A stretch of 64,000 nt of DNA from contig KV918837.1 of NCBI GenBank assembly GCA_002049455.2, positions 62,001-126,000 of the forward strand. The letters run 5' to 3'. Below are positions 1 through 15,094 of this stretch, piece after piece; position 1 is the first letter of the stretch; every line of letters starts with the position of its first letter. The position numbers were made by a program, and so were the translations under genes. Under the pieces are notes generated by a model that was not told the origin of the DNA, made no database searches, and saw only the letters and a list, made by a program, of their open reading frames with translations. The stretch is from Porphyra umbilicalis (Eukaryota > Rhodophyta > Bangiophyceae > Bangiales > Bangiaceae).

Positions 1-45
1 GAGGTGCGCTCTCCCCCCCCCCCCCCCCCCACCCGCCTCCACCGC

Positions 46-3000
46 TCACGCCCCCCCCCCCCAACCGCAACGGCGTGGTAGCCCGCGCGGCGGCAGGTGC
101 GCAGGTGCGCGGCCAGCGCGGCGGCACTCCCAAACGGGCGCCCGCAGCACAACCACACCGCGTGCGCGGTCGTGGTGGCCAGGTGCGCGCCGACGCCCGC
201 GGGGCCGTCGCACGCCACCGCGCACGCGCCATAGGGGCACACGCCCGACCGCAACGCGCGGGCAATGGTGCGCGGCATCCGCGCTGGGGGGGGGGGGGGG
301 GGGGGGGGGGGGGTCCCCACCACCCCCACCCCCGCCGCCGCCGCCACCGCCCCCGCCGCCGCCGCCGCCGCTGCCGGCGTGGCGGGCGCGGCGGCGGGCG
401 CGTCGGCGGCGGCCGCCGCCGGCGCCGCCGCGCGGCCGCCCGGCGCCCCCCCTCGAGGGCGGCGAGCATCGCCCGCACCGCCGCGCGCACGGACACCCAC
501 ACCACCGGCGCGGCGGCGGCCGCTTGGAGGGCGCCCGCAATGGGCGGGGCGGGGGGGCGACGGGCGGGCACCCCGCCACCGCAGACGCTGCCGCGGCGGC
601 CGCGCAGCTGCCGACGGCGGGGCCGCCCGCGCGCCGTGCGGCGCGCGCGCGCCCCTGCCGCGCACCGTCGGCGGTCGACGGCGCGCCGCCGCCGCGCCGC
701 CTCGTCACCACACTCGGCGGCGGCGGCGGCGGGTGCGGGGGCGCCGCCCGCGGCGCCACCGCCGCGGCCACCGCCGCCGCCGCGGCGGCCGAGGCGGGGG
801 CCTCCCCCTCCGCGTCGGCCGCGGCGGCGGCCGCCGCCGCCAGCGTCGACCGCGCGTCGGCGAGCGCCGGGGGGTCGTCGCCCCCCCCCCCCCCCCCCCC
901 TCACCCGGCACCGCCGCCGCCTCGGCGCGCACGAGCGCCGCGGCGGCGGCGGCGACCGAGGGGGGGTCCGCCACGGGCGCGGGCGCCGCCGCCACGGCAG
1001 CGGCGGCCGCCGCCGCGTCAGCGTCAACGGCGGCCACAACACCCCGCGCGGCCGTGACGCGGCGGGCGGCCGCCGACGCGCGGGCGGCGGCGGCCGCCGC
1101 CGACGCGGCGCCGTCACCGCCCCCGACCGGCAAGGCGTGCACGGCAGCCGTCGCGGCGGCGGCGGCGGCGGTCGCAACGGCGAGGCGGGCGCCCGCCGCG
1201 GCGGCGGCGGCGGCGGCCACGTCGAGGGTCACCAACGCGCGCAGGCGGTCGGCGACCGCGCGCGCCGCGTCGGCACCGCCGCCGCCAGTCGCCGCCGCCG
1301 CGCCCGCCGCTGCGCCGTCGGCCGTCGCGTGGCGCGAGCGCGACTCGGCGGCACGGGGAGGAGCCGTGACGGGGACGCCGTCGCCGCCGCCACACGGCGG
1401 CGCCGACGCCGGTCGGGGGGCGCGCGGCGGTGGGGGCGGCGCGGCGGGCACCGGGCGGGGCGCGCCCGCCCACGCCGCCGCCTCGGCGGCAGACCACCCC
1501 GTGCCGTCTGCACGGGCAGGGGCGGTCAAGAGCGCCGCCGCATCCGCGGGGGGCCACAGGCGCACGGCGCGCGCGGCGGGCGCCCCTGCCGCCGCCGTCA
1601 CAGCGGCGGGCGGCGACACGGCGGCGGCGTCGCCGTCCAAAGCCCCGCCGTCGCGGGCGCCCGTCGCGCGCTGCGTCGGGCGCCACCCCAGCAGCAGGCG
1701 GGGCGCCCCCCCCCCACGGTGGCAGTCGGCGCCCCCACGACGCGCGGCGGGGCGTCGACGGCGGCGGCGCCGCCGCCCTTGCGCGCCCACGTCGGCGGCG
1801 GCGCCAAGGCCGCCGCCGACGCGCACCGGCAGACGGCTCGCGCAGCGCCGTCGGCGGCGGCTCGGTCGCCCCATCCGGCGGGCGGCGGCGCGCCTCCGCC
1901 CGACCGCCCCCGTCGACAGTCGAGCACCGCGGCGGTGAGGCGGCGCCAGCGGCCGGCGGCGGCGGCGGCCACCGCCGCCGTTGCCTCCCCGGCGGCGGCG
2001 GCCACGCGGACGGCCGGCGAGACGACGGTGCGGGGGGAGGAGGCGACGCTGCCGCCGCCGCCGTCTTGGTCGCCCCCGCCGCTGCCGCCGCCGCTGCCAG
2101 TGGTACTGTGGTCGCTGACGGCGCCAGCGCCGCCGTCGACACTGTCGGCCGCGTCATTGTCTGCGGCAGCAGCGAGCAGCCGCAGCGCGCCGGGCGCAGA
2201 CGCCACGCCCACCTCACTGCCGAGCGCCTCGGAGGAGAGGTCCGAGTAGGTGCGCGCGCGCGGCGGCAGGCCGTGGCGGTCGGCTGCGGTCGGCGGTGGC
2301 GCCGCGACGACGGCGGCGGCGCCGTTGACCAGGAGGGGGTGGGCGGCAATCCAGGCGGCGACCGCGTCGGGTGGTGCCGACTGCACGTCGGGCCCAGCCG
2401 GTGGGGCCGCCTCGGACGCCACCGACCGCTGCGGCGCGCGCCGGTCAGACGGTGCCGCCGCCCCGACGCTCGACGGCGACGGCGCGGCATTGGTTGACGC
2501 GGCCGCCCCCGAATCGACCGACGGGGGCAGCTGCCCGTCGACCGAGCGCGCCGGCTCCTCGTCGTCAGAGGGCGTCCACTCCTCGTCGCTCGACGGCGCC
2601 AGCTCCTCGGCGCTGGCCGCCGCCACCGTCGTGTCTTGCCGTCGTGCCGCCTCGGCGGCGCTCGATGGGGCCGACGCCTCGCCGCGCGACAGCGCCGACG
2701 CCGCACCCCACGACGACGCCACATCCGCGCCACTGGCAGAGGCCACCTCCTCCCCACTCGACGTTGCCAACGCCTCGTCCATCGACGACGTCAGCTCCTC
2801 CTCGGCCGCCGACGGCGCTTCGACCCGGGCCGCCGACACCGCGGTGACCACTGGTGCCGGCACCGCCTTCGTCCCCCCCCGCCGCCCCGACGGCTCGGAC
2901 GGGGGCGGCGAGTGCCACGCCGCCGCCACGTCTGGCGGCGCGCCGACGCACGGCGCCCCCTCCTGGGGGGGCGACGCACACCCACACGCCCCCCCCGCCC

Positions 3001-6000
3001 CCTCCACCGTATCCCCACACGCCCAACACCAGCGCGTGCCGCACGCGTCGTGGCGCGCGCGGCGGCACGCGCCGACGGGCGCCTCGACGAGCGCCCCACA
3101 GCCGGGGCACGAGCGCCACCCGCAGCGGCGGGCGAGAGCCGACAGGGAGCGACGGTGCACCGCCTCGTCGGCGGCGGGGCCGGGCGGGTGTGCCGCCCGC
3201 GGGCTGCCACTGCCGTCGGACCACCCGCCGTCGGTGGGGGCGCCGACGGGCGGCACGGGCGGGCGGCGGCAGCCGCGCCCGGGGTGGCCCCCCGCCCGAC
3301 ACCGCACGCACGTGGCGACCGCGCAGGCGGGGCACACGACGCGGTAGGCGGCGGCCGCCGCCGCCGCCGCGCCCGTCACCGTGTCTTGGATGGCGGCGGC
3401 GACGGGGTCCCCGGTCGCCGCGTCTGCCGAGCCGGCCGGCCACGCCACACCCGCGTCCTCCGCGACGGTAGCCACCGCGTCGGCGACCGCGTCGGCGTCG
3501 GGGGCCCACGGGGGGGGCACAAACGCAAAGCGGTTGCCGCACCGCGCATTGGAGCACCACGCCAGGGACGCCCCGAGCGTGGCCGTCACGTGCAGCTCGT
3601 CGAGCCGGTCGGCGGCACGGTCGGCCGCGCGCTTGTCGCCGCCGTCCCCCCCCCCGGCGTCGCCGCCGCCGCCGCTGCTCGCGACGAGCAGCGCCGCGCA
3701 CACGGCATAAGGCAAGGGCACCCCGCAGCCAAATGCGGCGCACGGGACGGGGTAGTCCATCACGTCGAGCCGCGCCCGCACGTGGTCGGCGAGGCAGGGC
3801 GTGCAGTAGGTGTGGCCACAACCATCCCCGCCACAGGCCGTCATGGCCGCTGCCGGCACATCTTCGAGGCAAATACCGCAGGCGACTACGGCTGCCACCG
3901 CCGCCGGCGCTGCCGACGGCGCCCCGGTCGACGGCGCCGGCGGCACATCTGCCGCTGCCGGTGCCGCAACAGCCTCGCCCCACGACAGCCGACGCCGCAG
4001 CATTGTCGCCGGCGGCGGCGCCGGCGGCGACGCGGGGCACGCGAGCAGCGTTCGGGGCGGTGCGGGCAACCCGTCTGACGACGCGGCGCGCGGGGAGGGC
4101 GGCGAGCGGGGGGACGCCCTTCCCCCGACCGGTAGCGGCGGCTGCGCGGTCACTGGGGAAGAGCGCGCCATGCCCGACGGGGGGAAGAGCGAGAGCCGGT
4201 CCCCCAAAGCCCTGCGCGGCGGCGGCGCGGCGCGCCCGACCGACGGTGGAACGGCGGGCGTGTCGGCTGCGACCAAAGGAGACGACGGCGACGCTGGCAA
4301 CGCCGGCGGTGCCAGCCCCCCCTGCTCAACGCGCCGCGCGGCTGTCACGGGCGAGGCGGTCAGCTCGGCCGCCGCCGCCACGGAGGGCACGCGCCCGCCC
4401 GCCCACCACAGCGCCCCGGCGGGCGACCATGTCGACGGCGGCCGCGGTGGCGGCGGCGGGGGCGGCGACGGGCCTCCCTGATGGAGAAAGGCCCGTCGCG
4501 TTACGGGCGGCGTCACGGGCAGCGTCGTCGCAGCCGCACCGGGCGGAGCATCCCCCCACAACAACGGCGGGCCGCTCGTCGCGGTTGGGGACGCACCGCG
4601 CCCACCACCGGGTGCACGCTCCCGCATTGTGGCGCCCGCCGTCGGCGGCGGCGGCGGCGGGGCCGTGACCACCCCCGCCGCCTCGGCGGGAGGCAACCCA
4701 GACGCACACAAGGCTGCCGCGCACGACAGCGACGGCGGCGCCACGCCCGTCGGCGTCCGATACTCGGGCGTCGACGGTGGGCTTGGCGACGCGTCGCCGG
4801 CGGTCACCCGCGGCAGCGGCGGCGGCGGCGGAGCGGGGGAGGGCGGTAGTGGGACGCGCGCCGCCGCGGGGCGGGCGGGTGCCATCCCCGCCCGCGTGCG
4901 GCGTGTGGGGGTGGCGGCGCCGGGCGTGCCGCCGGCAGCCACCGCCGCGTCCGTTGTCGACGGCCGCCGCAACGGCGGCGCCAGTGGCGACAGCGGTAGC
5001 GGCAAGAGGGACGGGGCCAAGCGTCGGGTCGGCTCATCGGCTCGCCGCCCGCCCGACGGCGACACTGCGGCCGTCACGGTGGCGCAACCAGAGGGCGCGG
5101 TCGCACCGCCCGCTGCCAGAGGCAACGAGAGAGCAACTCGGGACCCCGCGTTGGCCGCCGCCGCCAACGGTGCTGGCGACGGTGGTCGCGACCGGCGGCG
5201 CGCCCCCACCCCCCGCAGGCAGTGGGGCTGCGTGGCGGCCGCCGCGGCGCGCCGCTGCGCCGCCCCCGTCCGCCGTGCGCGCGCCGACCGGCGCGGGGCG
5301 GGCGTCGCCGCGCCCGCGGCCGCCGCCACACGCTCTGCGGGGGTGGCGGCCCGCGCCACGCACCGGCCGCCGCCGTCGCCGCGCCCGTTACCACAGCCGC
5401 CGGCCGCCGGCGCGGCGGCCGCGGTGCCGACGGCGGGGGGGGGACCCGCCGTGCGGCAGCGGCGGAGCAGCGACCCGCCGTCGCCCGCGGGTGTCGGTGG
5501 GGGCGCGCCGTCCCAGCTGGCCGCCCGCCGCCGCGCGGTGCGGGTGGCGGCGGGGCGGTCCGCCGCACCCCGACCGCTGCCGCCAGAGCCTGCTGGTGCG
5601 GCGGGCACCGCGGGCGTTGGCCGCCCCGCGAGGGGGGGAGGGTGCCCCGCGCCGCCGGCGCCGACGCCTCGCGCGTCGTGGCCGCCGTCGGCGAGCGGGC
5701 GGCGGCGTCGACGTTGGCGGGTCGACTGCCAGCCGCTGCCGCCACACCGTCGCTGCCGCTGCGGCAGCCGTATCCCGTCGTGTGGGGTGCGGGCGTCACG
5801 GTGGCAGCCGTGGCGCCGCTGCCGCCCGGCGCGAGTGCCGCGCGCGGCACACGGTCCGCGACGACGACGCCGTTGTGCAGGGTGCACCCGCCCTCCGCCC
5901 CAGCCTCGCATACCGATCTGTCCGCCGCTGCTCCGCGGGCGTCCTCGTCTTTGGCCGCCCTCTCCCCGTTGAGGAGCACCACGGCCGTTTCCCCAGCGTC

Positions 6001-7085
6001 GTCTGCCAACAATAGATCGGGCCCGACGCTGGGGCTCCCGCCGACCGATGCGGCAGTCCTTGCCCAGAGCACCGCGCCGTCGGGCACCGCGTCGGCGATA
6101 GTGCCCTCGGCAACCAGCGCGTCGACCGCGGCGGGCGTGGGCGCAGCCTCCGCCTCGGCCGCCGCCACCACGACCACGCCGCAACCAGAGGCAGACGCGG
6201 TGGTGGGTGCGGCAGGAGTGCTGTCATCGCCAGCGTCGTCCGTAGCGCCCGAAACGGCAACCACATTGGTGGAGGACAGAGAGTCTTCGGCTCTAGCATC
6301 AACGTCGGCGGCGACCGCGTCGGTCATACAGTTGGCGTCGCCGCCGGCGACACCGTTGACGCCGTCGGCGTGGCATGGCGTGACGGCAGACGGCGCGGCG
6401 GCGGGAACGCCGACGACGGCACCTAGGGTGTCCACGCCGCGCTCCTGGGCGGCGGACAGCCCCGTGCCGCTATGGAGCGGCCCGTCGGCGCCCGCGGCCG
6501 CCGCGGCCGCCGCCTCGACGGCATTGACAGCGACGCCGTCACGGCGCACTTGCGCGACGGCCGCCCCCACTGCGCGCCCGTCGTCGGCTGCAGATGCATC
6601 GATGGTGGGGCCACCCGCGTCCACGCCGCGCTCGCGGGCGGCGGCCACAGGTGGCGGTGGCGCCCCAGTGCCGACATTGGGGGCAGCGCGGGTCGGCGGC
6701 CGGCGGCCGCCGCCGCACGACGCCACCGCGCCCGACCGCAGCGGGATCACCACAAGCCCGTCGACGGCGGCAGCGTCACCGCCGTCGCCGCCGCCGCGCG
6801 GCACGCCGCCGACGGCCGTGACGGCGGTGCCCCCCCCGCCCCGGGCACCGCCCGATCATCGGCGACCGCCGGCAAAGACGTTGCGGCCACGGCCGCCACC
6901 CGTCGCGGCGGGGCACGCGGCCGCCCCCGGTCGGCGGCCTTGGCCGCCACCGCCTCCCCCGTGCGTGCGAGGTCCGCCTCCCACGCGGCCCAGCGGGCGA
7001 CGGCCACGCCCGCCGCCGCCGCCGCCGCGGCGGGCGCCGAGAGGAGGAGGGGGATATGGATCGATGCGAGCGCCTCGAGGAACAT
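46..7085 (-). CDS. Giant RBR-type E3 ubiquitin ligase-like protein with N-terminal membrane segment and C-terminal zinc fingers; frame broken at homopolymers
   Basis: The start at 7085 (context CTCCACC-ATG) gives MFLEALASIHIPLLL, a hydrophobic segment of about 24 residues, then Ala/Pro/Gly-rich sequence. An RBR module follows at 3880-2971 and paired zinc fingers near 245-80. The longest unbroken frame is 6184-1598. Neighbouring frames join if one base is added at C8 6830-6837, G7 5632-5638, C10 1706-1715, C20 881-900, G7 551-557, C7 446-452 and C12 51-62. The gene then measures 7047 bases, exactly 2349 codons ending in TGA at 48-46. RBR ligases take ubiquitin from an E2 onto a RING2 cysteine and pass it to a substrate; a membrane anchor would place this one on a membrane. 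The low-complexity linkers are much longer than usual for the family. The joining is inference. The part before about 900 could be a separate gene, but no stop separates it in the joined frame. Confidence 0.68.
80..245 (-). other. Paired zinc-finger segment (C2H2 plus C2HC-like)
   Basis: On the minus strand the frame after the 28-base G run (286-313) reads RSGVCPYGACAVAC and continues. The first finger fits C-x4-C-x12-H-x6-H. The second has CCGRPF with the core F-x5-L-x2-H-x3-C typical of a C2H2/C2HC finger, although the first Cys of its C-x2-C pair appears replaced by Trp. It sits at the C-terminal end of the joined RBR reading frame. It could belong to that protein or to a separate gene cut by the window edge. 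Nucleic-acid or protein binding is possible; no target is inferred. Confidence 0.5.
2971..3880 (-). other. RING1-IBR-RING2 (RBR) domain
   Basis: All three zinc-binding parts lie in one unbroken frame. RING1 begins CGIC at 3880 and fits C-x2-C-x16-C-x-H-x2-C-x2-C-x17-C-x4-C. The IBR has CSNARC, then after a long Asp/Ala-rich insertion CPAC, CVRC, an H and a final C. RING2 has CPGCGALVEAPVGAC, then further cysteines and WCWAC. By comparison with Parkin and HHARI, the cysteine in VGAC is the expected ubiquitin-accepting residue. The spacing after it (seven residues to the next Cys, against four in Parkin) is unusual, and the nearby His is displaced. The inserted stretch between the first and second Cys pairs of the IBR is also long. 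Confidence 0.85.
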
Positions 7086-7130
7086 GGTGGAGGAGAGGGC
7101 AGGGGGGGGGGGTGGGGGCCAGACGCTCGA
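7086..7130 (-). promoter_or_regulatory. Pyrimidine-rich leader with C11 run before the RBR gene start
   Basis: Read on the minus strand, the 45 bases before the ATG at 7085 are nearly all C and T. They include an 11-base C run (7102-7112) ending 16 nt before the start, and a CTCCACC start context. Similar C-runs precede the other two host genes in this window. No TATA-like box was found close upstream. Confidence 0.45.
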
Positions 7131-9540
7131 TAGGGGGGATGCCGTCAGGAAGGGTGGGTGTGCGTGGAAGGGGGGGGTGGATTGACTGCCGCCGGGGCTG
7201 TGACGCGGGTTGCGGCCGCGGTGATCGGTCGCCTTGACGCTGGTGCGCGCCACTTAAGTGTGTCGACGGTCGGCGGGGGCCGCGTCGTCGCGCCGGGGGG
7301 GGCGGACGCCCCGCGGCGGGCGGGCGAGCGCGTCCATGGTGTCGCCGATCGGGGGGTGGGGCAAAGGGGCCCCCGCCGCAGGGCGTCGCCGCCGGCCACC
7401 GGCAGAGGGACAGGCACCGACTTGGAAACGGCGGCCGGCAGCGGCCAGCTGGCAGAGCGTGGCGGTCGCCCGTCGAGTGCCCGCTGGCGCGCAACGGCGG
7501 CCGGTCGGGGTGGGGGAGCGCCGCCGCAACGACCGAGCGGCGACGCGGGCCGCCGCTCGACGGAGACGCCAACGGCCGCGGCCCTTGGGGCGTCGACTGA
7601 CGGGGCGAGGATCCAGTGCCACTTTCAACATGTGACGCTGCTGTGCATTGAGATTCCGATGTGATGCATCGGAGTTGACCGGCAGTGCCACGTGGTGGAC
7701 ATGTTTTCAAGCGCACGGGTGCGCTGCTCGTGGCCGTGGCGCTACTCCTCGCCTACTGGCGCGGCAATTCCCTCTGCCACGCACCGCCGCGGCGGGTCGT
7801 ACCCCTCTGCTGCGGCGGGTCGTACTCCTCTGCCGCGGCGGGTCGTACCCCTCTGCCGCGGCGGGTCGTACCCCTCTGCCGCGGCGGGTCGTACCCCTCT
7901 GCCGCGGCGGGTCGTACCCCTCTGCCGCGGCGGGCGGGGCCGGTCGCCGCAGTGGCGCCAGTCACGCGCCTGCCCCGCTGTGCCGGGACATCCCCTCCGT
8001 CAGCTGGCGCGCGCGGCGGGGCACGGCGGCGTGCGCCCATCGGCCGGGGGCGGTCTCGCGGGCCGCGGAGTGCGGCGCGTGCCGATCTCTGGGGTGGCGG
8101 TGGCAGTTGCCCGCCGCCGTGGAGGGGAGGGCCAACGGCCCGTAGGCGGCCAGTCCCGGGTGGCACCGTCTGTGGGCGGCCACAACCGCACCGCACGAGG
8201 CGCTCCCCGTCACGGAGCGCGCCCGCTCCCCGTCACGGAGCTCCCCGTCACGGAGCGCGCTCCCCACCTGTGGTGCCCTGTTGCGTTCCGTTTCGGGAGG
8301 CCGACGGGCCGAGGCGAGCGGCTGGGCATCAGGCACCGTCGGCCCGACTGGGACTACCTGGGCGGACCACCAACAGCTCCCTATTGCAGAGCGGACGATG
8401 CTGCCGCCCAGGTCCTGCCCCGTGATGATCCCGCGTGCACGCTCCCGCGGACGCGTCACGCTGCCGATGTTGCCAATGCTGCCACTCCCGGTGCTGCCCG
8501 CGGGTCCGCCAGGCGGCGGGGTGGCCACGGACGGTGTACGCAGTGCGGAGGGCGCGTTGAGCATGTGCTGCAGGAACTGCCCGCATTGGGTTCACGTCCC
8601 GCCGCGGTTGCAACGGAGCGGCCGTGGTACGTTCGGCTGGCCATACCCTTGCCGACACGGCGTGCTCGGCGCTGCAGCGGTCATCTGCGCCTCTGCGGCG
8701 GCGGGTTGGGTTTCAAAGGGGTCGGCGGCGGCGACGCGCCGTAGCCGCCGTCGATGACGGCCCCCCCCGCATGACGCTGCGGTGTGTCGGAAGCGCAGCG
8801 TACGCGCAGCGCAGAGTGCCTCGTACCGGCGGCGGACGCGCAGGGTGGCGCCCCTCGGGCCGCCACCACGGCTGGGGTGCGCACGGCTGCGGCGCCCGCG
8901 GCGGTGCCATGGGCGGGACCCGCCGCCGCGCGCGCGCGCGCGCCGCAACCCCGATGCGCGCCGTGGCGGGCGTCGGCACCGCCCCTCTGCCGTCGGTGCC
9001 AGCGGCGCGACCGGCAGTGCCACCGGCCGGCCGCCGCCGCCGCCGCCGCCGTCGGCCACCGCTGTGCCACGCGCCGTTGTGGCACGCCGCACGGCGCGTC
9101 TGCCGGCGCGCCGGCGGTGCGGCGGGCGGCGCGTCGCCGACGCACCAAGCGCGCTGGGCAGCGTGGGGCGACGCGCGTGCCTCTGCGAGAAGGACAATAA
9201 AAAAAAAGAAAAAAAGGGCAATGGTGGAGAGAAGGGCGCCGCACCGTGCTCCGTGTGGAGCGCGAGCGTCCATCCTTTTCCGTCGACGCGCACGGGCCGT
9301 GGTTGTTTCCCACGGTTCCGTACGGCGAAAGGGACGCGCTCCCCGCCAATAAGCGTGCGGGGGGGGGGGGCCCGCCGGCGCGCCCGCGGCCGGGGTGGTC
9401 GCGCGCCGGGTCACCCGTCACGGCCGACCGCTTCCGCCCGGCGTGCCACCCGCGGCTGCTGGCGGCCGAGGCGGGCCTGCGCCGCCGCGGCGCCGCCGCC
9501 GCGGTGCCGCAGTGTCACCGCTCCCCGCGGCGATATTGTA
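7131..9540. other. Intergenic region between the divergent RBR and NDRG genes; no gene recognised
   Basis: This 2.4-kb GC-rich stretch holds many short open frames on both strands, none with a recognisable domain or continuing across a neighbour. It contains a 23-bp tandem repeat (7789-7940) and three direct copies of ctccccgtcacggag near 8202, 8224 and 8239. An A-rich tract with aataaa lies near 9195-9215. That tract read on the minus strand gives a phenylalanine run that mimics a signal peptide. The region should contain the promoters of both flanking genes. Confidence 0.5.
7789..7940. repeat. 23-bp tandem repeat, about 6.5 copies
   Basis: The unit begins gcggcgggtcgtacccctct and recurs at 7789, 7812, 7835, 7858, 7881, 7904 and (degenerate) 7927, always 23 bp apart. 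The first copies carry substitutions (tgctgc, actcct). The last three full copies are identical, as expected for recent slippage or unequal exchange. Because 23 is not a multiple of three, the array does not encode a repeated peptide. Confidence 0.9.
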
Positions 9541-9547
9541 GCGGCGG

Positions 9548-9553
9548 TATAAA
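9548..9553 (+). promoter_or_regulatory. TATA-like box upstream of the NDRG-family gene
   Basis: A TATAAA lies in otherwise GC-rich DNA, 288 bp before the ATG at 9841, on the correct strand and side of the gene. The intervening sequence becomes increasingly pyrimidine-rich and would form a leader of about 250 nt. No other TATA-like site lies nearer. No transcription start was measured. Confidence 0.4.
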
Positions 9554-9658
9554 CGCAGTCCGTCGCGCCCCTCCCCGCGTCGCTCTTGTAACGCTGCCCG
9601 CCACGCGTCCGTGGCCCCTGTCTCCCGCCCTGTTGATCCGCCAGCTGTGCGCTCTCCC

Positions 9659-9840
9659 CTTGCTGCCGTCTGGCCCCCCCCCTGTCTTGACATCCCTTCC
9701 CCCCGTCTTTGCCACCGCCAACGCCACTACCTCACCTCCTTCCCGCCTCCCCCCTCCCGCGTCCCTCTCCCCTCCCTTTCCCCCTTCTCCCCCCCCCCTC
9801 CTACCCCCCCCCCCACCCCCCCCCCCCCCCGTCCACCACC
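9659..9840 (+). promoter_or_regulatory. Polypyrimidine leader of the NDRG-family gene, ending in C15
   Basis: About 180 bases almost wholly of C and T precede the start. They contain long C-runs: C10 near 9789-9798, C11 at 9804-9814 and C15 at 9816-9830. The last run ends 10 nt before the ATG, followed by gtccaccacc. The same frame remains open upstream and would add 44 Pro/Leu-rich residues from an ATG at 9709. The start at 9841 was preferred because of its Kozak context and because family similarity begins after it. Confidence 0.55.
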
Positions 9841-10830
9841 ATGATGACGGCGACGCCCGCGGTGGACGACGACCTCGACATCCTCGTCGAAGCCGCCCCC
9901 CGCTCCCTGCCCCTCACCCGCCCCGGCGACACGGTGACCGTCTCCCACACGGAGCACCTGCGCGTCACCCACATCCACCCCGCGGCGGCGGGCACGCGCA
10001 CCTACCCCTTTGCGGTGCTGACGCTCCACGATATGGGCCTCAACGCCGCGTCGGCCTTTTCCACCCTCTTTGCCGTCTCCTCCGCGTCGACGCCATCGTC
10101 GGCGCTCCACGCGGCCGACGTGTACCACGTGGACGTGCTCGGCGCCCAAGACGACGCGCCGCCCATCCCCGCGTCGGACCCGTGGGTGTCCCTGACCGAC
10201 CTCGGGGCGGAGGTGGCGGCGCTCGCCGCCTCCCTCCGGGCGTCCACCCCGGGCCTGCGCCGGTTTGTGTTGGTCGCGTCGGGCTCGGGGTGCCACATTG
10301 CCGTCGAGGCGGCGCTGACGCTGCGCTCCGCGGTGGCGGGCATGATCCTCTTTTCGCCCGTCCTCACCGGCGCCGGCGCCGCCGACGGGGTGCGCGAGCG
10401 CCTCTCCGCCCTCGGCGGGTGGAACGGCACGGGGGAGGGCGCCAAGGGCGGGTGGTTGGCGCGGTGGCTCTCCCCCGACGCGGCGGCCGCCAACGTGGAG
10501 CTGGCGGCCAAGTACGCGGACGCGCTCGACCGGGTGTGTGGGGCCAACGTCGGGCGGTACGTGTGGGCGGATGCGCGGCGGCGGGATGTCGGCGCCGCGC
10601 TGGCGGCGGCGCCCCGGGGCTCCGTCGGCGGGCGGGTGTTGTTGTTTGGGGGGCGCGCCGCGACGGGCGTCGGCGCGTACGCGGCGGTTGTGGAGGGGCT
10701 CGCCGCGTGGCCGCCGGGCGCCGCGTCGTTGATTGGGGTGGAGGGCGCGGGGGCGGCGGTTGTGGAGGAGGCGCCCCACGAGGTCGTCGAGGCGGTGCGG
10801 CTCTTCTTTATGGGGCTCGGCTGCGTCTAG
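9841..10830 (+). CDS. NDRG-family (N-myc downstream-regulated) alpha/beta-hydrolase-fold protein
   Basis: A single uninterrupted frame of 329 codons starts ATG-ATG in a ccaccacc context and ends with TAG. It shows the NDR landmarks in order: an early LTLHDMGLN block (LTYHDVGLN in animal NDRGs), the HVDVLGAQDDAPP block (HVDAPGQEEGA) around residue 95, and VLVASGSGCHIAVEAAL at the nucleophile elbow. At the elbow a Gly replaces the catalytic Ser, as known for NDR proteins. Length fits the family (about 320-390 aa). NDRG proteins are thought to be non-enzymatic and linked to stress, vesicle or lipid functions; no precise role can be read here. The longest homopolymer in the gene is six bases, and unlike its two neighbours it has no frame break. 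It is convergent with the Hint gene. Confidence 0.82.
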   Translation: MMTATPAVDDDLDILVEAAPRSLPLTRPGDTVTVSHTEHLRVTHIHPAAAGTRTYPFAVLTLHDMGLNAASAFSTLFAVSSASTPSSALHAADVYHVDVLGAQDDAPPIPASDPWVSLTDLGAEVAALAASLRASTPGLRRFVLVASGSGCHIAVEAALTLRSAVAGMILFSPVLTGAGAADGVRERLSALGGWNGTGEGAKGGWLARWLSPDAAAANVELAAKYADALDRVCGANVGRYVWADARRRDVGAALAAAPRGSVGGRVLLFGGRAATGVGAYAAVVEGLAAWPPGAASLIGVEGAGAAVVEEAPHEVVEAVRLFFMGLGCV

Positions 10831-10851
10831 GGGGGGGGGGGGGGGGGGGGG
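10831..10851 (+). other. G21 run directly after the NDRG stop codon
   Basis: A 21-base G run follows the TAG with no intervening base, so it would be the first part of the 3' untranslated region. The leader of the same gene carries C15, which is complementary. The true length may differ, because homopolymers in this assembly appear under-called. Confidence 0.7.
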
Positions 10852-11199
10852 AGAAGGGAGAGGTGTGAGTGTGCGCGACGGGGCCAGCTGCGTGCGCGTG
10901 TGGCGGCCTGTCGTCGACGTGCGCGTCGGTGCCTGCACATTTGCGCGCGCGCGTTGCGTGTGTGGGTCTCTTTGGGTCTTTTTTTCGCATGACTGGCTGC
11001 CTGGGTGTCGCCCCTGCCCCCCGCGCTGCGGTGCCGCCCACGTCGGCACGGGGCGCGCCCCCCCCCGCCTCCACCAGCGGCGCGTCGGCGGGCGGCTCGA
11101 CGCCGCCCTGGCGCCGTCGACAAGACTAAAAGTGAAATGGGCGCCGCGACCCCGCTCTGCGCGTCAGCCTCCCCCCCCGCCCACCCCCCCCCCGCCCCC
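10852..11199. other. Convergent intergenic region between NDRG and Hint genes
   Basis: This 350-bp region lies tail to tail between two genes and should hold both 3' ends. It has a T7 tract near 10979 and, near 11160-11199, C-runs that read as G-runs (G5, G10, G3, G8) immediately after the Hint stop on the minus strand. No AATAAA was found on either strand. No gene was seen. Confidence 0.5.
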
Positions 11200-11811
11200 C
11201 TACAACGATAGGCGGCCGACGAGGCGCATGACGCGGTCGAGGGCCCCCCCCCCCACGCGGAGCACCCCCCCCCCCCCAACGCCCAAACGCCCTTGAGCGG
11301 CGCCAGCAGGCCGACCGCCACCCGCGGCGGCACGGCGGTCGTCAGTTCGGACCAGGCGACCCCGTCGACGAGCACCCCCCCCCCGCAAGCGTGTGCGGGT
11401 TGTACAAGCCGACGGCGGCGGCCACGCGGGTCACCCGGACAACCGCACTCCACCCGCCGCCCGCCACGCCGAGGCGGTCGCCAACAACCACATCTGCCGC
11501 CGGCAGCAGCACCGCCGCGCCGCCGCCACCGCCGCCGCCGCCGCGCCGCCGCACGACCGGCAGCAGGTGCCCCGGCGACGCAGTTGAAGCGCCCCCCCCC
11601 GCGACGGTTAGACGCACCATGGCGCTCACCGCCGCCGCGTCGGCGTGGGAAAAAAAGAAGACGGGCGAGTAGGCCGCGGCCGTGCCATTCGCCGCGCCCG
11701 CCGCCACGCGGACGCGGGTGCCGAGCGTGAGGTCGCGCATGCGCACGACCGCCCCCGTTGACGTGGTCACCGTTGCCGCCGCGGGGAAGCAGGCGCGGCC
11801 TTTGCGGCTGA

Positions 11812-11847
<36 letters not shown>

Positions 11848-13734
11848 CGTCGCCGCCGCCGCCGTCGCCGCCGCCGTCGCCCGTGCCGCCGCCGTCGGTG
11901 CCGCCGCCGTCGGTGCCGCCGTCGGTGCCGCCGTCGGTGCCCCCCCCCCCCCCGACCCCGTATCGTTTTTCCCCGACGCCGCCGGCGCCTCATCGACGCC
12001 GACCTCGGTGGTGATGTCCGTCGACGCAACGCTCCCGTTGCGCTCGACGGTCACGGCGACGCACGACACGGTCTCCCGCGCGGGCGCCGCCGGCGCGAGC
12101 GCGAGGAGCGACAGGCGCGTCATGACCCCGTCGGGCCCGACGGGCCGGTTGGGCAGCGCCCGCTCGACGAGCGCGTAGAGGGTGACCGCCGCCCGCGGGG
12201 GCGCCGCCGCCGTCCCATTGTCCGCGGCGGCCGACGGCGGCGGGGTGGCGCCCGCCGCCGCCGCCGCGTCCGCTTCCGCCGCCGCCCCCGCCGCCGCGAG
12301 GGTGACGCTGACGACGGGGGAGACGGGGGCGTAGGAGACGGCGGCGAGGACCCCCCCCCCGGGGTGGTCCGACCGCCCGCCCCCCCGAGCCCCCCGACTT
12401 CCGCCACGAGGCCGACGTCCACGGGCGGGCCCGGCGGCGGCTCGCAGCCGGCGCCGAGCGACCCGACGGCGGTGCCGCCGACCCACACCCGCCCGCCGGG
12501 GGCGGCGACCGCGGAGAGGGGCGCGAGGGCGGCCCCCCCCACGGCGCACGCGTCGGAGAGGGCCACCCCGCCGACGCCCCCCGCGCACGACGCGTCGGCA
12601 ACGACGGAGCGCCCCATCCCCGCCGCCGCCGTCAGGGCCCCGTCGGCGGCGGCGAGGACGAGCGCCGCGGAGCGGCGGCGGGGCTTGTCCCCCTCGGCCG
12701 ACGGCACGTAGGGGGACGATACGGGCAACACGTAATCGACGACCGCCCCCGTCGCCGCGTCGACGCGGCGGAGGGGTGGGAGGAGGGACGGGAAAAAGCG
12801 CTCCCACCCGTCCGTCCGCGCCGGCAGGAGCCCCTCGATGGGGTGCACGACGGACCACGTTGGGGCGACGGGCACGCCCGCGCGCCCCGACGGGGGCGGG
12901 TAGGCCGCCGCCGCGATGGAGGCCGCCCCCGACCAGGGCCCCTTCCCCTCCACGGGGTCGCCAAACACCACCGCCGCGACGGCGGTCCCCCCATCCTCGG
13001 CCGGCGCCACGGCAATGGCCGCCGCGCCGGCGGGGGCGACCCCCCCACGACATCCGACGAGCGGACCCCCCCCGTGGTGCCCCGGAGGACGATGCGGATC
13101 AGCGACGAGAGCGGGGGCCCATCCGCCGCCTCCCGCAGCACGTGCACGTGGAGGTGCTCCCCGTCCGCGTCGACGGCCATGGCGGATTGGGTGGCGGGCA
13201 CGCGGGTCTCCCAGAGGAGTTTGCCGCTCGGGATGGCCACGCGCCACACGTACGATCGGCCGGCGGCCGCGTCGACGGCGAGCACAAACACCGTGCGGCC
13301 GGCCGTGTCGGCCGCCGCCGAGCGGACGGTGGGGAAAAAGGAGGCAGCCGCGGCCGACCGGTTGGTCGCGTCGGCCGGCGCGCCGTCGAGCGTCGCGCGG
13401 GAGAGGGGGATGGGCGCCCCGACCGCCGCCCCGTCGCTCGCATTGACGAGGCGGAGGAGGAGGCGCTCGTCCAGGGGGGTGTCGGACGCGCCCCCGACCG
13501 TGCCCGTAATGACCGCAATGGCCGTGGGGGGGGCCCCCGAGCCGCGCGCGACGAGGGGCACGACCGCCGCCGAGGCGCCCTGCCACCCAACCGTCGGCGT
13601 GGCGGGGGTGAGGGGGGGGAGGTGCGCCGTCCACACCGCCGCCGCCGACGCGGGCGGGGGAGCGTCGCGGCGGCGGCGGCGACCGCGGCGACCGCCGCGA
13701 CCGCCGCAGTAGCCACGCGGCCGGCGCGGACCAT
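11200..13734 (-). CDS. Secreted Hint (hedgehog/intein-type) autoprocessing protein; frame broken at homopolymers
   Basis: From ATG 13734 the frame encodes MVRAGRVATAAVAAVAA, a signal peptide or anchor. An ectodomain with PQQ/beta-propeller-like strands follows (SYVWRVAIPSGKLLWETR; RVDAATGAVVDYVLPV), then a Gly/Asp/Thr-rich linker and a C-terminal Hint domain. Stretches lie in different frames but join if one base is added at G5 13656-13660, C7 13040-13046, C10 12351-12360, C14 11940-11953, C10 11375-11384 and C13 11265-11277. The sum is 2541 bases, exactly 847 codons, ending in TAG at 11202-11200. Hint domains cleave the bond before their first Cys and release the N-terminal part, as in Hedgehog and Hog proteins. 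The pattern suggests a secreted, self-cleaving protein. The propeller call is weak, the Hint call strong. Either sequencing indels or recent decay could explain the breaks. Confidence 0.68.
11345..11791 (-). other. Hint domain (Hedgehog C-terminal/Hog type)
   Basis: The domain opens with CFPAATVTTSTGAVVRM and continues RMRDLTLGTRVRV, very close to the Hedgehog start CFPxxxxVxxxxGxxxxMxDLxxGD. Inside are YSPVFFFSHAD, then SPGHLLPV (the block with the conserved His, LTPAHLL in Hedgehog), then DVVVGDRLGV. After that comes GLYNPHTLAGG, followed after a +1 at C10 11375-11384 by VLVDGVAW (the GxYAPLTxxGxxxVDGV block). The residue before the first Cys is Ala rather than the Gly of Hedgehog. A cholesterol-binding SRR extension is not evident; about 50 residues follow. 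Confidence 0.88.
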
Positions 13735-13747
13735 GGCAGCGTCGGGC

Positions 13748-13763
13748 GGGGGGGGGGGGGGGG
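13748..13763 (-). promoter_or_regulatory. C16 run (minus strand) just before the Hint gene start
   Basis: On the coding strand this is a 16-base C run ending 13 nt before the ATG at 13734. It matches the C-runs 10-16 nt before the starts of the RBR and NDRG genes. It lies in the probable leader. Confidence 0.5.
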
Positions 13764-15044: not shown

Positions 15045-15094
15045 CCAAGCGCCTCAGCGCCCCCTATCACGATAGGGGGCGCTGAGGCGCTTGG
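15045..15094. repeat. Perfect 24-bp-arm palindrome (hairpin) with 2-base loop
   Basis: The left arm 15045-15068 begins ccaagcgcctcagcgc and ends tatc. The loop is ac, and the right arm 15071-15094 is its exact reverse complement. A T8 tract follows at about 15,111-15,118 and an aataaa near 15,132. It may be the fused ends of a small fold-back element, a structured RNA 3' end, or a recombination footprint. No flanking target duplication was identified. Confidence 0.85.

Follow-up and report, generated by a model that had tools for sequence, protein, structure and literature searches.

C-runs before and G-runs after genes of the red alga Porphyra umbilicalis: strand polarity at gene ends as the probable extreme of a composition gradient

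A stretch of 64,000 nt from contig KV918837.1 of the red alga Porphyra umbilicalis (assembly GCA_002049455.2, positions 62,001 to 126,000 of the forward strand; from here: the window) raises the question why long homopolymers of opposite kind stand at the two ends of its genes. A reading made from the letters of the window alone (from here: the sequence-only reading) had placed a long C-run just before the start and G-runs just after the stop of three genes, NDRG, Hint and RBR, always on the coding strand, and had suggested that the two ends of each mRNA could pair and thereby close the message, or could act as G-quadruplex or poly-C-protein signals. Here we report that, in a larger set of loci from the same genome, C-runs cluster just before genes and G-runs towards the end of genes and shortly beyond it. 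With moderate confidence we regard these runs as the most extreme expression of a strand-polar gradient in base composition that follows the transcription units, and for which no pairing of the ends is needed.

The polarity was assessed in 76 loci of about 2–4 kb from the same genome, which were obtained from domain matches and oriented by the domain. They represent the best-scoring matches to kinase (30 of 144), DEAD (30 of 40) and Ras (16 of 16) domains and are thus a non-random sample. The 3′ side was assessed in the 55 loci that contained a stop codon and whose last exon was plausible, after 14 loci had been dropped for having no stop within the locus and seven had been dropped by hand (six with a non-terminal exon or internal stop, one of plastid origin). 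For the 5′ side, 43 of 74 loci offered an ATG preceded by an in-frame stop; the ATG was picked by codon score with the runs masked, so that some choices will be wrong, and one gene may count as two loci.

Within 100 nt after the stop, G-runs of at least 7 were present in 16 of the 55 loci and C-runs in none (P 3e-5), or in 15 of 52 when the complete 100 nt were required. Twelve loci carried such a G-run already within the first 30 nt, again against no C-run, and five had a G-run of at least 10 within 100 nt, compared with none for C; the longest post-stop run reached G27 (locus L074). The 5′ side was the mirror image, with C-runs of at least 7 within 100 nt before the chosen ATG in 11 of 43 loci and a G-run in a single one (P 0.006). 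Where no ATG was chosen and the 150 nt before the domain were taken, C-runs of at least 12 occurred in 11 of 74 loci and G-runs in 0. Beyond about 200–300 nt from the gene, C- and G-runs were even, or reversed as expected from neighbouring genes. The sequence-only reading had proposed to look for an enrichment over many genes, and for strand polarity the outcome was positive. The polarity is not universal, as 18 of the 29 loci with both ends readable had no run of at least 7 at either end. A second set of gene ends, called among neighbours by codon scores, gave G-runs of at least 7 in 2 of 17 and C-runs in 0 of 17 at the strict threshold, 6 against 2 of 42 at the middle and 11 against 4 of 84 at the loosest threshold, but it is too small and impure, and L084, one of the two loci with a G-run at the strict threshold, represents a gene end already covered by the domain-anchored L074.

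The 5′ polarity also appeared in counts over the whole genome on both strands. A C10 run was followed within 30 nt by ACCATG at 597 places, compared with 94 places for a G10 run followed by ACCATG, a 6.4-fold excess, and likewise 94 for a C10 run followed by ACCAGT; the mirrored controls yielded 57, 139 and 161 places, respectively. Because ACCATG itself outnumbers ACCAGT 1.8-fold in sampled sequence (206 versus 117 per Mb), the start-specific excess after C-runs amounts to about 3.6-fold. These counts are places, and two runs before one ATG count twice. Moreover, the figure of 597 is inflated because at least 13 of 100 listed C10/ACCATG places are copies of two repeats. One is a tandem repeat at G000:C4:422900-427791, with five C10-to-ACCATG copies of identical sequence at a spacing of about 1215 bp. 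The other is a dispersed repeat, identical from C10 to GCACACCATG, which accounts for 8 of the 100 listed places (e.g. G000:C1:200678, C2:434066, C3:557017).

The runs are not confined to the flanks. In the 32 loci with both ends available, G-runs of at least 7 numbered 0, 2, 5, 6 and 23 from the first to the last fifth of the open reading frame (ORF), and C-runs 4, 4, 1, 0 and 1. Counted in 100-nt bins from the stop, G-runs of this length numbered 17, 10 and 23 in the bins at −200, −100 and 0, then 2 and 1, with C-runs at 1, 0, 0, 1 and 0 in the same five bins. C-runs peaked in the 100 nt before the ATG, where there were 15 of them versus one G-run. The guanine-cytosine (GC) skew followed the same course. 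It was −0.21 in the 60 nt before the ATG (bootstrap −0.29 to −0.12; 43 loci), +0.015 from 600 to 300 nt before the stop, +0.12 over the final 300 nt up to it and +0.28 over the 60 nt beyond it (bootstrap +0.20 to +0.36; 53 loci). When runs of at least 5 were masked, the skew persisted at −0.11 before the ATG and +0.18 after the stop. At fourfold sites it was +0.23 in the last 20 codons, compared with 0.01–0.02 more than 100 codons from the stop, and glycine rose from 8.8% to 15.7% towards the stop (loci L009-L084), in parallel to the G-runs of the last fifth; coding sites therefore take part in the gradient. The thymine-adenine (TA) skew was of the same sign at both ends, with T exceeding A beside the ATG (+0.35) and beside the stop (+0.34), and a slight T excess in the 600 nt before the stop (+0.03 to +0.06).

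Three hundred shuffles that kept the base make-up of the end regions gave on the 3′ side a mean of 9.7 and a highest value of 16 loci with a run, compared with the 15 of 52 observed, and on the 5′ side a mean of 7.2 and a highest value of 12, compared with 11 of 43. As the shuffles approach and sometimes reach the observed counts, skewed composition explains much of the runs, although this composition includes the runs themselves. Taken with the distribution over ORF fifths, the skew that persists after masking and the behaviour of fourfold sites and glycine, this points to the runs as the most pronounced part of a gradient that continues across the coding sequence.

In the window, all six C/G strings of the sequence-only reading are present at the quoted places, and the NDRG gene shows the bracket most clearly. 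It lies on the forward strand at 9841..10830 and encodes 329 amino acids in a single intact frame, with a match to Pfam Ndr of 1.1e-28 across residues 58–328 and a frame score of 203, compared with −283 and −199. Its pyrimidine-rich leader ends in C11-A-C15 (9804..9830), of which the C15 at 9816–9830 is separated by 10 nt from the ATG at 9841–9843, and a G21 (10831..10851) follows directly after the TAG at 10828–10830. The string TATAAA occurs at 9548..9553 on the same strand, about 290 nt 5′ of the ATG; if it were a TATA box it would place the C-runs in the 5′ untranslated region (UTR), at which the string only hints.

The other two genes lie on the reverse strand. The proposed Hint-domain gene spans 11200..13734, its C16 (13748..13763) being 13 nt away from the proposed ATG at 13734–13732 and a G5-C-G10 string (11184..11199) following the proposed TAG at 11202–11200. 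The domain itself (Pfam Hint, 1.5e-13, within 11345–11833) is in this assembly out of frame with that TAG. A frame tracker run from the ATG to the TAG counted six switches under each of two penalties and five when the penalty was made stricter. All six are of the same sign, five lie at or beside G-runs, the first has a C8 within 120 nt, and the last falls between the Hint domain and the TAG. Behind the C16 leader, the internal runs of at least 9 are G-runs only, and all six of them (12351–12360, 11940–11953, 11592–11600, 11375–11384, 11265–11277 and 11244–11254) fall into the 3′ half of the gene.

For RBR, a C11 (7102..7112) stands 16 nt before the proposed ATG at 7085–7083 and a G18 (13..30) begins 15 nt after the inferred TGA at 48–46. 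The open frame with the domain, at 1598..5911, matches Pfam IBR at 3.8e-05, slightly below the gathering score, and RING models at 0.005–0.009, and connects to neither this ATG nor this TGA; the frame of the ATG hits a stop after 112 codons. The frame tracker gives a noisy picture here: at the middle penalty it switches 17 times, 10 times with one sign and 7 times with the other. The internal runs of at least 9 are also of mixed kind and include a G20 (881..900) and a C28 (286..313), both given for the coding strand, the latter speaking against a clean bracket. Of the claim that all three genes are bracketed, the NDRG case thus stands on one intact frame; the other two are conditional, since in this assembly neither the Hint stop nor either end of RBR shares the frame of the respective domain. 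The 607-amino-acid ORF in the transposon-rich part of the window lacks such a run at either end, as had been said.

How far the run lengths can be trusted is a matter of the assembly, which comprises 83.8 Mb in 665 contigs, with a GC content of 68% in sampled sequence and abundant long C/G runs (43,326 overlapping 16-base positions on both strands). Among runs lying between two stretches with a clear codon signal, the frame was kept across 21 of 55 runs of at least 9 and 44 of 60 runs of 7–8, compared with 965 of 1028 run-free control places; both strands were scanned and adjacent runs counted apart, so that these figures include some non-coding and some non-independent cases. The frames break at C/G homopolymers more often as one base missing from the assembly, which fits 25 of the shifts at runs of at least 9, than in another way (9 shifts). 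Exact lengths such as C15 or G21 are therefore not to be relied on, and homopolymers may truncate gene models in assemblies of this kind.

How could such a gradient arise? What was observed is a coding strand that favours C in the leader, has almost no bias in the middle of the gene and favours G from the last stretch of coding sequence until 100–200 nt past the stop. Slippage may then lengthen C- or G-runs where one base locally dominates in weakly constrained DNA, that is, in the leaders, the trailers and the proline- or glycine-rich protein ends of a very GC-rich genome. The skew itself would most likely stem from mutation or repair coupled to the transcription phase, a cause already proposed for fungi.

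Several observations weigh against this explanation. Selection on leaders and trailers could produce the same gradient. The presence of runs at both ends of one gene leans towards an association, short of significance (P 0.068). In sampled sequence, ATG was not enriched within 30 nt downstream of C-runs of at least 9 (36 versus 40.5 expected), and TA directly before G11 was not enriched genome-wide (397 places versus 828 for the mirrored string, a weak control; TA:AT ratio of 0.57 in sampled sequence). As neither ATG after C-runs nor TA before G11 is enriched, many runs are not at gene ends. Finally, the parts of PMC3315797 considered here describe A over T within fungal genes, whereas in the alga T exceeds A beside both gene ends and slightly in the coding region before the stop.

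A rule by which G-runs start at the TAG was considered separately and rejected on the same count of TA followed by at least 11 G.

The main rival is a selective account, in which leaders are kept poor in G, and trailers rich in G so that they cause pausing. On the 3′ side, the G-biased region would be a functional pause or termination element, at which an R-loop or G-quadruplex slows the polymerase after the stop; on the 5′ side, a C/T-rich leader would stay free of structure for scanning, the runs again being the extreme of a composition that is selected. G-rich positive skew favours R-loops and pausing. The G-run peak over the 30 nt that follow the stop is sharper than drift alone requires, and several leaders are rich in C and T and poor in G ahead of starts whose context we read as Kozak-like. 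Against a pause element speaks that the bias sets in about 50 codons before the stop and reaches fourfold sites, and that 39 of the 55 loci have no G-run of at least 7 within 100 nt of the stop. We consider the pause element possible and rather unlikely.

Doubtful is a further step, by which C-tracts and G-tracts together form a code that tells the cell where transcription units begin and end, throughout a whole GC-rich lineage. In this view G-tracts from the stop codon onwards would cause pausing by way of R-loops or G-quadruplexes, C-tracts would provide leaders open for entry because they lack structure, and expression would be tuned by run length, which mutates fast.

Chance in a genome filled with homopolymers draws on the abundance of long C/G runs and on those composition-keeping shuffles that reach the observed counts. 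It predicts no strand asymmetry, yet the counts are 16 versus 0 after the stop, 11 versus 1 before the ATG and 597 versus 94 genome-wide. As an account of the whole we deem it improbable, and for the polarity it is already refuted, while it is still the best account of any single run.

The C+T-rich leaders could also suggest an acceptor for trans-splicing or for a leader intron, with the 5′ C-tract acting as its polypyrimidine tract. Among the 11 loci with a C-run of at least 7 in the last 60 nt, an AG precedes the ATG in five, in L066 directly. In the other six no AG lies between the run and the ATG, and it is absent there from NDRG, Hint and RBR as well; the 3′ side would be left unexplained. 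An acceptor is thus very unlikely, and trans-splicing was rejected on the six loci that lack the AG.

Pairing of the 5′ C-run with the 3′ G-run of one mRNA, which the sequence-only reading had offered as a way of closing the message, is the least credible of these readings. The signs are complementary, with C before the gene and G after it, NDRG could match 15 C with 15 G, and in 29 loci the runs were present at both ends in 4, at the 5′ end only in 3, at the 3′ end only in 4 and at neither in 18 (odds ratio 6, Fisher P 0.068). However, the lengths of C- and G-runs are uncorrelated (rho 0.03 in 32 loci; partial −0.13 given local GC content), and C-run length instead tracks the local GC content (rho 0.67). 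The runs extend into the coding region, and two of the three cases in the window depend on out-of-frame ends. C+T-rich leaders face G+T-rich trailers where G+A-rich trailers would be needed; with T over A in both, leaders and trailers are not complementary in general. The complementarity of leaders and trailers was not borne out and the closing of the message is not supported; a weak link between the two ends is conceivable, as is pairing in single genes such as NDRG.

Other features of the window lie further downstream. A long tandem satellite extends over about 18300–54000, in which nearly identical frames recur after 682 bp (18937 and 19619) and the composition stays very even up to 54 kb. 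An inverted repeat at 15045–15094, read by eye, has 24-base arms (ccaagcgcctcagcgccccctatc / gatagggggcgctgaggcgcttgg) and a 2-base loop in a less GC-rich stretch; it could be part of a mobile element or a hairpin.

One contig of the assembly, C665, is a red-type plastid genome. Its locus L085 contains psaB plus part of psaA, and the PsaB protein matches best PDB 7y5e (1595 bits) and next 7y7b (1546 bits), which we take to be from Porphyridium and a cryptophyte, respectively. The frames at its locus L083 are presumably rps18, infB and ycf3, and a further frame on the contig presumably tufA.

A composition polarity of the same kind far from the fungi, and seen as homopolymers, would argue for a general cause linked to transcription, and a very GC-rich red alga would offer a sensitive system for testing mutation versus selection. 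For practical use, the polarity of the runs helps to orient genes.

How does this compare with what is known? Parts of two genome papers give GC contents of 64–68% for Bangiales (the Pyropia yezoensis paper, PMC7423979) and 70% for Neoporphyra haitanensis (PMC8752119), and the 68% and 83.8 Mb found here fit the range of about 65–70% and about 50–110 Mb that they convey. As far as the parts considered go, PMC7423979 does not deal with strand skew, and the words 'UTR' and 'homopolymer' are absent from its main text. A literature search over titles and the beginnings of abstracts, with few subscription papers, did not find the polarity in red algae, which is a weak negative.

On the 5′ side, Fujimori et al. 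2005 (PMC555766) reported that in plants and fungi C prevails over G around transcription starts and 5′ of translation starts, like the 5′ bias described here; the passages concerned deal with the 5′ end. According to these passages there was no C excess in the 11 protist species of that study, and its main text does not contain the term 'red alga'.

The closest counterpart is found in unicellular fungi. As described in parts of PMC3315797, their coding strand is C-biased at the 5′ ends and G-biased at the 3′ ends of genes, with a skew that reaches fourfold sites, promoters and 3′ UTRs, has its 3′ maximum at the stop codon and shifts the use of amino acids at protein ends. A weak correlation with expression counts among the features of this opposite 5′/3′ GC-skew architecture, and the A excess within genes is described as common though not defining. 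The candidate causes named are mutation tied to the phase of transcription or an avoidance of C at the 3′ end. As far as these parts extend, the 5′ C-bias, the 3′ G-bias that is highest around the stop and the effects on fourfold sites and amino acids are shared with the alga. Different from the fungi are the organism, a red alga, the homopolymer runs, the DNA of 68% GC and the T excess beside both gene ends. The polarity reported here matches the known gene-end skew anatomy of fungi and would be new in that it occurs in another branch of the eukaryotes and in the form of homopolymers.
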